From a virus: DNA of 31,902 nt. The first letter of the stretch is position 1. Each line of letters opens with the position of its first letter. A program made the position numbers and the translations under genes. This document shows positions 5,762 through 16,543 of this stretch, one piece after another. The stretch lies in IMG/VR virus record IMGVR_UViG_3300009332_000013, positions 1 to 31,902 of that record; one strand, 5' to 3'. The notes beneath the pieces are model-generated. The model saw only the letters and a program-made list of their open reading frames with translations. It had not been told where the DNA came from and did not search any database.

Positions 5762-6463
5762 ATGTTAAAGTCAAAAGTCTTAGATAAAGGTTTTATTGAG
5801 GTTGTAGATTCACTTGGCACAGACTTAACAGTAGTTAATTCTGCTCGTGTATCATTCGGTAAGAGAAAAGAGAAATTCGATAAGTCAGATGAACGATTGG
5901 TTCGTTATCTTGCTAAACACAAACACTACTCACCATTTAGACATTTACAAGTTCAGTTCCATATAAAGGCACCTGAGTTTGTAATGAGACAAGCATATAA
6001 GCATGTAGTTGGTATTGAAACTACATCTAATAGTTCAACAAAAGACCACGCTTGGAATGAGATTAGTGGTAGATATGTTCCAGTTGAAGATTTTTATATG
6101 CCTGAAGTATGGAGAAAACAATCTCAAGATAACAAACAAGCATCAGAAGGGGAATTGGACTATGACGGACAAGAAACTGCAAGTTCATTATATAGAACAG
6201 GTATAAATGAAACAAAAAGAATTTACGAAGAACTTGTTAATCTTGGAGTTGCTAAAGAACAAGCAAGAATCATATTACCATTGAACCAATACACAGAAGT
6301 TTATTGGACAGCGTCATTTCAAGCTGTTATGAATTTTATTGAACTAAGAAATGAAAAAACTGCACAGATAGAAATACAAGAGTACGCTAAGGTATTGTTA
6401 AATCAGATGAAAGAAGTATTTCCAAAAACAACTAAATTGTGGTGTGAGGCACATAATTGGTAA
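5762..6463 (+). CDS. thyX: Flavin-dependent thymidylate synthase ThyX
   Basis: This 233-residue protein is the size of ThyX (usually 200-260). ThyX makes dTMP from dUMP using methylene-tetrahydrofolate, FAD and NADPH. Visible hallmarks are KHYSPFRH (54-61, the S-PFRH element), FVMRQ (73-77) and NEISGRYVP (99-107), corresponding to the NE.SGRY part of the ThyX signature. The classical RHRX7S motif is changed: KH at 80-81 stands where RHR is expected and about 19 residues intervene before Ser102. It is preceded by an AAAGGTTAT leader and a TTTATT/AATAAA inverted repeat. Its stop overlaps a TTG-started polymerase-like gene. Together with the RNR and glutaredoxin encoded further on it would supply nucleotides for phage DNA synthesis. 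Confidence 0.9.
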   Translation: MLKSKVLDKGFIEVVDSLGTDLTVVNSARVSFGKRKEKFDKSDERLVRYLAKHKHYSPFRHLQVQFHIKAPEFVMRQAYKHVVGIETTSNSSTKDHAWNEISGRYVPVEDFYMPEVWRKQSQDNKQASEGELDYDGQETASSLYRTGINETKRIYEELVNLGVAKEQARIILPLNQYTEVYWTASFQAVMNFIELRNEKTAQIEIQEYAKVLLNQMKEVFPKTTKLWCEAHNW

Positions 6464-14504: not shown

Positions 14505-14533
14505 TTGAACGTTTTGGCTATTTGTAATATATA
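14505..14533 (+). promoter_or_regulatory. Sigma70-like promoter for ncRNA2
   Basis: -35 TTGAAC (14505-14510), 17-nt spacer, -10 TATATA (14528-14533), preceded by TTAAAAAAGC at the methyltransferase 3' end. Predicted start near 14540. No gene with a ribosome-binding site follows for more than 500 nt. Confidence 0.7.
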
Positions 14534-14539
14534 TATATT

Positions 14540-14990
14540 TATATCGTTAGATATTAAGATTTTTGATAATTTGAAAACGGAAAGTAGAGAGAGTAATTAA
14601 CTCTCTATGGGATTGCCTGAATAATGAGTATACTTTGAAGCTCATAAGGGAATCTACCAATGGATGTGGTGTCCGACTACCTGCTAGAATGGTAGGTTGC
14701 AAATGTCTCGTAGACATACGAATTGGAATGTACTTTCAGAACATATAAAGAACACGATTCTTTGACCTTGTTGTGAGTAAGGGTAAAACCGAAATCTCAC
14801 TTTATGACCGAATAATCTAATCTTGGAGAGATAAGGTAATGGTACAGAGGTTGTACTCAATCGATGATAGTTAACCACTATTGAGAGAATCATCGTAACT
14901 GATGGGTATTAGGTACAAGGTAAAAAAATCCAAGCTGATAGTTGTAGGTAATCGTTAATCCTACATCCCCAAATTTTCAAAAATTATAAA
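14540..14990 (+). ncRNA. Putative large structured non-coding RNA 2 (about 450 nt)
   Basis: A gene-free stretch with its own promoter and dense pairing. Possible closing stem: ATAATTTGAAAA 14566-14577 with TTTTCAAAAATTAT 14974-14987 (2-nt bulge). Inside are: TAGAGAG/CTCTCTA (14585-14607); GATTgCC/GGgAATC enclosing ATGAG/CTCAT (14612-14654); CTACC/GGTAG (14677-14695); ATGTCT/AGACAT with a CGT loop (14703-14717); GTGAG/CTCAC (14773-14800); GTACA/TGTAC with a GAGGT loop (14842-14856); CGATGAT/ATCATCG (14862-14895); and TGTAGG/CCTACA (14943-14965). GC content is visibly higher than in neighbouring coding DNA. I found no group I intron P/Q/R/S sequences, RNase P core or tmRNA ends. It is followed by a T-run terminator. 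It matches no RNA family I know. Confidence 0.65.
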
Positions 14991-15057
14991 AAAGGGTTCA
15001 ACCGATTTTTAGTTTCCACTATATACAAACTTAAAAAACTACAGAACCCTTTTTTTT
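14988..15057 (+). terminator. Terminator-type inverted repeat enclosing a promoter
   Basis: AAAAAAGGGTTC (14988-14999) is complementary to GAACCC (15044-15049) plus the following T8 run (15050-15057). Transcription arriving from ncRNA2 would form a 12-bp hairpin ending in U8. The roughly 44-nt loop contains a promoter, so transcripts started inside it would lack the left arm. Confidence 0.6.
14997..15025 (+). promoter_or_regulatory. Putative promoter for the 15075 methyltransferase, inside the terminator loop
   Basis: -35-like TTCAAC (14997-15002), 17-nt spacer, -10 TATATA (15020-15025). The -35 matches consensus less well than the other promoters here, but the spacing is the same. Predicted start near 15032, upstream of the AAATAAAGGTTAT leader of the 15075 gene. 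Confidence 0.5.
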
Positions 15058-15074: not shown

Positions 15075-15689
15075 ATGTTAGACGTATCGTCACATAAAAA
15101 TGTAGAAAATGTTATAAGATTCTTTTTGATGTATTTACCGCCACGAGGAGCAGAATCAATACTCGATGTCGGTGGTGGTAGTACAGCTCCATATAAAGGC
15201 GTTCTACAAACTCGTACAAAAAAATATAAAAATTTAGATATAAGACCAGGTGATAGAGTTGATTATTGCCAAGATATTATAGAAGGTACAAATTTTAAAG
15301 ATAAACAATGGGATTGGGTTTGGTGTTCAGAAACACTTGAACATATACCACAACAATATATGAAAACTTTTGTTGATGAAATTTGTAGGATAAGTAAAAA
15401 TATTGTTTGGACATTTCCACTACCACACTCACCAGCGTTCCACGATGACCCAGGCCATAGTGAAGTTATAGTTGATATGAAATCATATGATACGGATTTC
15501 AATGTTATTGATAAAACTACAAAAACTGGAAAAGGAATCTGGATATTTGCAAGAAAAGATAAAGAAATTCAAGTATCTAAAAGAGGAATAATCCAAGAAG
15601 GATATTCAGAAGATACTCTACCATTCGTAGTAATAAATTATAAGTGTTATGATAGAAATAATACTAAAAAAGCTTGGACGTTTACATAA
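15075..15689 (+). CDS. Class I SAM-dependent methyltransferase-like protein
   Basis: 204 residues, starting at an ATG behind AAATAAAGGTTAT. ESILDVGGGSTAP (about 27-39) is SAM motif I. YKNLDIRPGDRVDYCQDII is the post-I acidic strand region, and WDWVWCSETLEHIP (about 76-89) is the motif IV region with the EHIP signature common in small-molecule, lipid or sugar methyltransferases rather than DNA enzymes. A following TFPLPHSPAFHDDPGHSEV segment resembles those of glycan-associated methyltransferases. The target is unknown; the glycosyltransferases in the window make sugar or glycan methylation plausible. The 3' end of the gene (AAAAAAGCTTGGAC) doubles as the -35 region of a gp32 promoter. Confidence 0.7.
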   Translation: MLDVSSHKNVENVIRFFLMYLPPRGAESILDVGGGSTAPYKGVLQTRTKKYKNLDIRPGDRVDYCQDIIEGTNFKDKQWDWVWCSETLEHIPQQYMKTFVDEICRISKNIVWTFPLPHSPAFHDDPGHSEVIVDMKSYDTDFNVIDKTTKTGKGIWIFARKDKEIQVSKRGIIQEGYSEDTLPFVVINYKCYDRNNTKKAWTFT

Positions 15690-15704
15690 CATCTTAGATA
15701 TATA
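15674..15704 (+). promoter_or_regulatory. Probable gp32 promoter overlapping the upstream gene end
   Basis: -35 TTGGAC (15674-15679) preceded by AAAAAAGC, with an AT-rich -10 region GATATATA (15697-15704) at 17-19 nt. The exact -10 register is ambiguous. The -35 lies within the last codons of the methyltransferase gene. Confidence 0.5.
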
Positions 15705-15707
15705 TTA

Positions 15708-15764
15708 TTAATCAAGGTTTTACTTTGATTAACAATTAACAATTAAAACATTAACAATTAGGAG
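15708..15764 (+). promoter_or_regulatory. Likely autoregulatory translational operator of gp32
   Basis: A 10-bp hairpin, TTAATCAAGG (15708-15717) with CTTTGATTAA (15723-15732), has a 5-nt loop. It is followed by three copies of TTAACAATTA (15729, 15736, 15751) running into the AGGAG ribosome-binding site. T4 gp32 represses its own translation by binding a structured 5' element plus unstructured A/U repeats at its start region. The layout is the same although the sequence differs. Confidence 0.6.
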
Positions 15765-15772
15765 ATTATAAA

Positions 15773-16543
15773 ATGGATATTGATGCAATACGGAAACGTT
15801 TAAATCAGTTACAAACCACAAACACTCGTACTTCAAATTTATGGAAACCGCAACCAGGAAAGCAAGTTGTTAGAATTGTACCTAATAAGTACAATAAAAC
15901 TTCACCTTTCATTGAGTTGTATTTTCATTATGATTTGGGCGGACGAACCTACCTATCACCAATTTCTTTTGGAAGACCAGACCCTGTTGAAGAGTTTGCT
16001 GACAAATTGAAATCAAGTGGTAATCGTGATGACTGGAGACTTGGTAAGAAACTTGAAGCTAAGATGAGAACTTTTGCACCTGTACTTGTACGTGGAGCAG
16101 AAAATGATGGTATTAAGTTTTGGGGATTTGGTAAAACAGTCTACCAAGAATTACTCTCGGTTATTGCTGACCCAGATTATGGTGATATTACAGATGCAGA
16201 AAATGGTCGTGATGTCGTAGTTGAGTTTAAGACTGCAGAAGAAACAGGAAAATCATTTCCTACTACTGCTATTCGTGTTAAACCAAATCAGACACCAATT
16301 TCAGATGATAAACAAACAATGGAAGGAGCATTAGAAAACCAAGTTGATTTAAATACGGTTTATAATGAACGTTCTTATGATGAACTTACAGAAGTTCTGA
16401 ATGAGTGGTTGAATCCATCTGAAGATTCTGAAGCGAATGGTACAGCTACTGAAACGGTAGATAAACCTACAAAGGAAGCTTTGAAGGAAACTACTACAGT
16501 AGATGATGCCTCATCCGCGTTTGACGAATTATTCAATCGGTAA
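15773..16543 (+). CDS. 32: Single-stranded DNA-binding protein gp32
   Basis: 256 residues (T4 gp32 has 301). It coats ssDNA during replication and recombination and organises the replisome. The N-terminus has basic residues for cooperative binding (DIDAIRKRLNQL). The OB-fold core includes IELYFHYDLGGRTYLSP (about 46-62) and IKFWGFGKTVYQELLSV (about 117-133). The C-terminus is acidic (WLNPSEDSEANG) and ends SSAFDELFNR, the protein-interaction tail typical of the family. There is no cysteine in the protein, so the zinc site of T4 gp32 is absent. It has an AGGAG ribosome-binding site and the repeat-rich leader described separately, and it lies upstream of uvsX and gp41, in keeping with a replication-recombination operon. 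Confidence 0.88.
   Translation: MDIDAIRKRLNQLQTTNTRTSNLWKPQPGKQVVRIVPNKYNKTSPFIELYFHYDLGGRTYLSPISFGRPDPVEEFADKLKSSGNRDDWRLGKKLEAKMRTFAPVLVRGAENDGIKFWGFGKTVYQELLSVIADPDYGDITDAENGRDVVVEFKTAEETGKSFPTTAIRVKPNQTPISDDKQTMEGALENQVDLNTVYNERSYDELTEVLNEWLNPSEDSEANGTATETVDKPTKEALKETTTVDDASSAFDELFNR

Follow-up and report, generated by a model that had tools for sequence, protein, structure and literature searches.

Genomic setting of the RNA

The window analyzed here is the whole stretch of 31,902 nucleotides that makes up positions 1 to 31,902 of the viral record IMGVR_UViG_3300009332_000013. Between positions 5762 and 31900 it encodes Thy1, a gp32-like single-strand DNA-binding protein (SSB), UvsX/RecA, a 5'-3' exonuclease, a DnaB-like helicase, a B12-type ribonucleotide reductase, a clamp-loader-like ATPase, a PfkB-like kinase, and a head maturation protease. 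Among isolates, its RecA comes closest to that of Microcystis phage Mel-JY01 (51.6% identity), a phage that has no match to the manA RNA family.

Upstream of the ssb gene lies a region in which our searches brought up no coding gene (Table 1). An initial annotation, made from the sequence alone, had read this region as a large structured RNA of no recognized family, framed by a dedicated promoter and terminator. That such an RNA exists, with both of these signals, is strongly supported by covariation in 36 relatives; the assignment to no known family, however, is superseded, because each half of the RNA corresponds to a unit of manA (RF01745).

Table 1. Predicted features of the RNA locus and of the two genes that follow it (positions in the window; helix numbers refer to the 36-sequence alignment)
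Feature	Position	Strand	Remarks
RNA-gene promoter	14505-14533	+	-35 TTGAAC 14505-14510, 17 nt, -10 TATATA 14528-14533
Double manA RNA, predicted noncoding transcript	14540-15057	+	about 518 nt; putative 5' end
Closing stem	14558-14573 with 14970-14985	+	moderate support
P1 hairpin	14584-14608	+	covariation, helix 1
Unit 1, weak Rfam manA RF01745 match	14585-14714	+	19.8 bits, below cutoff; permissive scan
P0 GGGAU/AUCCC, enclosing both units	14609-14613 with 14965-14969	+	36/36 paired
Unit 1 P2; internal loop CUGAAUAA/UAAGG (manA signature)	14616-14650	+	Rfam alignment, covariation
Unit 1 multistem junction	14657-14726	+	hairpin with GUGGUG loop at 14666-14671; hairpin 14708-14721 with GACA loop; covariation, helices 5-7
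Swapped P5 helix A	14733-14739 (unit 1, 5' strand) with 14935-14941 (unit 2, 3' strand)	+	
Swapped P5 helix B	14765-14771 (unit 1, 3' strand, ACCUUGU) with 14915-14921 (unit 2, 5' strand)	+	
Junction hairpin common to both Rfam matches	14773-14800	+	overlapping RF01745 matches, helix 10
Unit 2, Rfam manA RF01745 match	14776-14969	+	58.8 bits, cutoff 55.2
Unit 2 P2; internal loop GAAUAA/UAAGG (manA signature)	14807-14837	+	helices 12-13
Pseudoknot CUUGGA/UCCAAG	14822-14827 (unit 2 P2 loop) with 14929-14934	+	helix 14
Unit 2 multistem junction, three hairpins	14840-14911	+	helices 15-19
Unit 2 3' terminal hairpin, GUA...AAUC loop of manA	14944-14964	+	Rfam alignment, helix 20
Intrinsic terminator	14988-15057	+	AAAAAAGGGTTC ... 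GAACCCTTTTTTTT; T8 ending at 15057
Methyltransferase-fold protein gene	15075-15689	+	only in some relatives; outside RNA
gp32-like single-strand DNA-binding protein gene (ssb)	15773-16543	+	outside RNA

A conserved fold

Relatives of the RNA were collected through homologs of the next gene and an 18-nt motif of the terminator loop, and 36 distinct full-length double RNAs, including a divergent clade (L171, L204, L208, and L216), were aligned with MAFFT. Across these sequences a curated structure of 110 pairs is 96.7% paired, with double-sided changes at 73 pairs as against 49 after shuffling; sliding one strand along the other as a control lowers pairing to 37-46%. RNAalifold recovers 96 pairs from the same 36 sequences, 68 of them with changes on both sides. 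The covariation that had been proposed as a check on the RNA is strong among these relatives: under a tree-based null 15 column pairs reach E<0.5, all of them Watson-Crick pairs within the fold, this null being our own script rather than R-scape and the sequences being related to one another. The hairpins that had been picked out by eye are borne out: covariation backs P1 and P2 as well as the hairpins in each of the two multiloops. The long closing stem, originally placed at 14566-14577 with 14974-14987, also exists, but its best register is approximately the one given in Table 1. It is less well supported than the core: duplexes of each leader with its own trailer average -8.8 kcal/mol, against -7.2 when leaders are swapped between distant rows of the alignment and -4.5 when they are shuffled.

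As anticipated, the single sequence folds better than its shuffled versions (z = -2.7 for 14540-14990 and -3.8 for 14540-15057), though the complementary strand does about equally well (z = -3.9). Energy alone is therefore not proof and does not pick the strand, which we assign on the ground that the covarying helices contain many G-U pairs. Such moderately favorable energies, equaled on the other strand, are also what an AT-rich intergenic region that pairs by chance, or a decaying, functionless remnant, might give; the strong covariation over 36 sequences, very divergent ones among them, together with the invariance of the loop motifs, refutes this reading and leaves it a negligible probability. 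The GC content of the RNA (0.33-0.40) is higher than that of the sequence directly upstream (0.20-0.30), so that the claimed elevation over the flanks holds for the upstream flank, the one compared.

Two interwoven manA units

A search of Rfam returned manA at 58.8 bits for the second half of the RNA. The weak match of the first half shares the core CUGAAUAA ... UAAGG ... GUGGUG, and in relatives the corresponding match scores 29-40 bits (E down to 1.5e-11). Several relatives show two head-to-tail manA matches overlapping by 20-32 nt; G034 has two, at 61.2 and 39.9 bits, and viral contigs of this type carry the RNA of the window. From these matches and the alignment, we regard it as almost certain that the region is a double manA RNA made of two homologous units in tandem. 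The miRNA and snoRNA matches of the permissive scan fall below cutoff and were set aside as chance. The GOLLD, ROOL, and OLE models gave no match, either at the gathering threshold or with E relaxed to 5, in agreement with the earlier remark that features of GOLLD and ROOL are missing. The region has no match among isolate phages by BLASTN, the terminator motif is absent from the bacterial and archaeal genomes searched, and no double or tandem manA is described in the main texts of the literature searched.

The outer stem typical of manA (GGGaG/CuCCC) is represented by P0, to which unit 1 contributes one strand and unit 2 the other; in relatives it reads GGAAU/AUUCC or GGGGU/ACCCC, and two of its pairs covary. 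Both units carry the CUGAAUAA/UAAGG internal loop in P2, with alignment columns that are mostly invariant. Rather than forming from adjacent strands of the same unit, P5 is swapped between the units in 36/36 sequences. The exchanged helices average -9.2 and -8.5 kcal/mol, whereas the unswapped alternatives, rejected as much weaker in every sequence, average -0.8 and -1.5; helix A shows double-sided changes at all 7 pairs, and in the Rfam alignment of unit 2 the P5 pairs are broken. Because of this exchange, we file the double form as a variant of manA rather than as a standard member. The double form also supplies an independent covariation constraint on the manA fold and demonstrates that units can exchange their P5 strands.

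By alignment, the junction hairpin serves unit 1 as its 3' hairpin and occupies the P1 position of unit 2. The pseudoknot of unit 2 comprises 6 pairs, all formed in 36/36 sequences and 3 of them with double-sided changes; it holds the top covarying pair, and one of its positions shows all four Watson-Crick pair types. Unit 2 further has a short loop-loop contact between GUU (14850-14852) and AAC (14873-14875), with a double-sided change in four rows, and unit 1 retains the GUGGUG loop, for which no complementary ACCA partner was found.

Other loci (L028, L039, L052, L081, L021, and L033, among others), around the CTGAATAA core, share CUGAAUAA/UAAGG/GUGGUG; their sequences mostly score below the manA cutoff, and their long 3' parts differ. 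The manA superfamily seems to reach beyond RF01745.

Transcription signals and downstream genes

The promoter named in the initial annotation is present, and in close relatives it is kept although the gene upstream differs; promoter, RNA, and terminator stay together while that gene varies. In a simple promoter scan, TTGAAC-17-TATATA was not scored as a sigma-70 consensus match. The terminator is likewise real, with a stem that covaries across the alignment (helix 21), but its T8 lies beyond position 14990, where the RNA had been thought to end. It has the form AAAAAAGGGUUC ... GAACCC U8, with the conserved UUUUUAGUUUCCACUAUA in its loop. A terminator of its own ends each aligned double RNA (n = 36), a statement that is partly circular because the sequences were gathered by the motif in the terminator loop, with few also found independently (the core-pattern loci and L236). 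Several double RNAs found by the core pattern carry the usual terminator, and one relative found by the covariance model rather than by its terminator has an unrelated one.

This terminator is not an obvious attenuator, because in the comparison of 36 relatives no conserved stretch of the RNA body is complementary to its 5' arm; attenuation by antiterminator pairing was rejected on this ground. Nor does pairing of the terminator arm provide the coupling of an expression platform to an aptamer that would mark a riboswitch.

The conserved loop of the terminator, TTTTTAGTTTCCACTATA, is also present at loci lacking manA (L147, L150, L151, L152, L158, L173, and L162). At L162 it follows an Hsp20-like gene; it also belongs to a short cassette of promoter plus terminator, from which a tiny RNA could be made.

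A gp32-like ssb gene follows the double RNA in 35/38 loci. The RNA lies about 105-126 nt from this gene in 28 of them, one has a small ORF in between, and in six aligned loci, the window included, the methyltransferase gene, absent from the others, is inserted between terminator and ssb. The methyltransferase gene is also found away from the RNA (L135/L236). Several relatives have another promoter-like block between the terminator and ssb, and in the window ssb has such a block of its own at about 15673-15708, after the methyltransferase gene. That each sampled copy has a terminator and that the downstream ssb has its own promoter-like block make it quite probable that the double manA RNA is a stand-alone transcript of about 14540-15057. 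With its own start and stop signals it would probably be a free RNA and not the control region of a neighboring gene.

The same neighborhood has features that would suit a cis-regulatory leader, which would sense a ligand or protein and thereby adjust either read-through into the downstream gene or its translation. The methyltransferase gene of the window starts 18 nt past the terminator, where a promoter would not fit, and so seems dependent on read-through. Moreover, two distinct phage groups have manA just ahead of gp32-like ssb genes (e.g., L003, L006, L007, and L036; the window), a placement for which a regulatory role is possible. The sensed protein could be the phage SSB itself, with the double core behaving like a cooperative tandem riboswitch; in T4, gp32 acts as an autogenous, mRNA-specific repressor of translation (PMC535899). 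The T4 gene 32 leader is likewise structured and precedes a gp32-like SSB gene, but the double manA is much larger, is set apart from ssb by its terminator and by another promoter-like block, and is separated from it by a whole gene in six aligned loci, the window included; we claim no sequence relation between the two. A leader is further disfavored by a terminator whose arm complements no conserved part of the RNA, by the position of the ssb promoter-like block beyond that terminator, and by the different genes (Hsp20, a cobalamin-biosynthesis-like protein, and an ORF without assignment) that follow the RNA in the other three of the 38 loci.

The two homologous structured units in one transcript recall the tandem glycine riboswitch. 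In the double manA, however, the units are interwoven by the outer stem and the P5 helices, and a terminator precedes the next gene.

Comparison with canonical manA

The 2010 description of canonical manA presented it as a riboswitch candidate found in cyanophages and marine sequences, the pseudoknot being doubtful (PMC2864571); an update came with Rfam 14 (PMC7779021). Rfam files it as type Cis-reg, and later papers repeat this label (PMC9964418; PMC12197685). Since that first description it has stood as a widespread structured RNA of marine cyanophages without a demonstrated function. The copies of Prochlorococcus and Synechococcus phages and of marine metagenomes share with the double form the P1 hairpin, the P0 outer stem, the CUGAAUAA/UAAGG loop, the multistem junction with its GUGGUG hairpin, the 3' hairpin with a GUA...AAUC loop, and an upstream promoter of their own. 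The double form differs in having two cores in one P0, swapped P5 strands, an extra pseudoknot in unit 2, a closing stem, and its own terminator with a conserved loop, and in not being joined directly to the next gene.

All 44 distinct canonical copies examined (L218-L226 from isolate cyanophages plus 35 metagenomic loci) have a TTGACA-TATAAT promoter with at most 2 mismatches and a start point at P1, a combination found at 2.4% of random positions. Several copies take their -35 box, TTGACA, from the loop of the hairpin that terminates the upstream gene (GAGGGTGCTTGACACCCTCTTTTTTT), so that terminator and promoter are fused. Each of nine complete cyanophage genomes (9/9) carries exactly one copy, and the sites are unrelated: behind regA, ferredoxin, the major capsid gene, or pstS, or before transaldolase. 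An ORF begins within some tens of bases downstream of most copies. It is of the gp32 type (MSF-LKK start) in 15/38 copies with a readable ORF, two of these being checked by Pfam, and PurS, transaldolase, or small ORFs occur elsewhere; three copies are followed by a tRNA gene. Terminators are not enriched behind canonical manA in our own scan (1/27 as against 5% in controls), and we therefore do not claim that this form is terminated. Since most copies run into an ORF, their promoter does not decide between a leader and a free RNA.

For the leader, these copies thus furnish the existing classification as a cis-regulatory riboswitch candidate, an ORF soon after an RNA that mostly lacks a recognizable terminator, and gp32-like genes after canonical and double copies alike; the tRNA genes after some of them fit it less well, and a single copy per genome would be unusual if manA were a riboswitch serving a metabolite pathway. 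Canonical manA may deserve its cis-regulatory label, which suits the double form poorly; for the double RNA we hold the leader, the chief competing explanation, to be unlikely. It is the double form, more than the promoters of the canonical copies, that points to a free RNA.

A candidate trans-acting RNA

On balance we favor, with some reserve, a self-contained phage gene for a double manA RNA of ~500 nt that acts in trans. Two manA cores stand in tandem within one outer stem, P0, and are locked by the exchanged P5 strands. The RNA would be made alongside the neighboring replication genes and released free, its own terminator uncoupling it from the gene downstream. The pseudo-symmetric cores would then present two invariant GAAUAA/UAAGG loops to a partner from host or phage, most likely a protein. 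With two cores and two copies of the loop, the doubling would give either two-site binding or a covalently fixed dimer. The chances that the double manA is a trans-acting two-site binder seem to us evenly balanced. We put forward more tentatively that it is a natural covalent, strand-swapped dimer acting in trans, and that canonical manA is a free-standing phage RNA that acts as a dimer. If so, canonical manA, a riboswitch candidate since 2010, would be one gene per genome, transcribed from P1.

A different use of doubling would be structural, in an oligomeric RNA like OLE, ROOL, or GOLLD, where it would fix a dimer interface that two molecules of canonical manA would form and serve in scaffolding or in sequestering host factors. 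Swapped P5 helices are the expected appearance of a domain-swapped dimer made covalent, and other large phage RNAs without assigned function form RNA-only oligomers (PMC12286853). However, the Rfam consensus allows canonical manA to close P5 within one molecule, and although GOLLD, ROOL, and OLE are likewise large structured RNAs, the first two phage-encoded and without assigned function, the double manA matches none of their models; we consider this structural role improbable.

Whether manA is a trans-acting RNA, as we favor for the double form, or a leader is a directly testable question, given the terminator, the promoters at P1 in 44/44 canonical copies, and the one copy per genome; the culturable phages P-SSM2, P-HM2, and MED4-213 are suited to it. 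As a minor observation, tRNA-Asn or tRNA-Tyr genes adjoin several canonical copies (downstream in L013, L058, and L069; in the flanks of L009 and L004), and tRNA genes likewise lie near GOLLD and ROOL.
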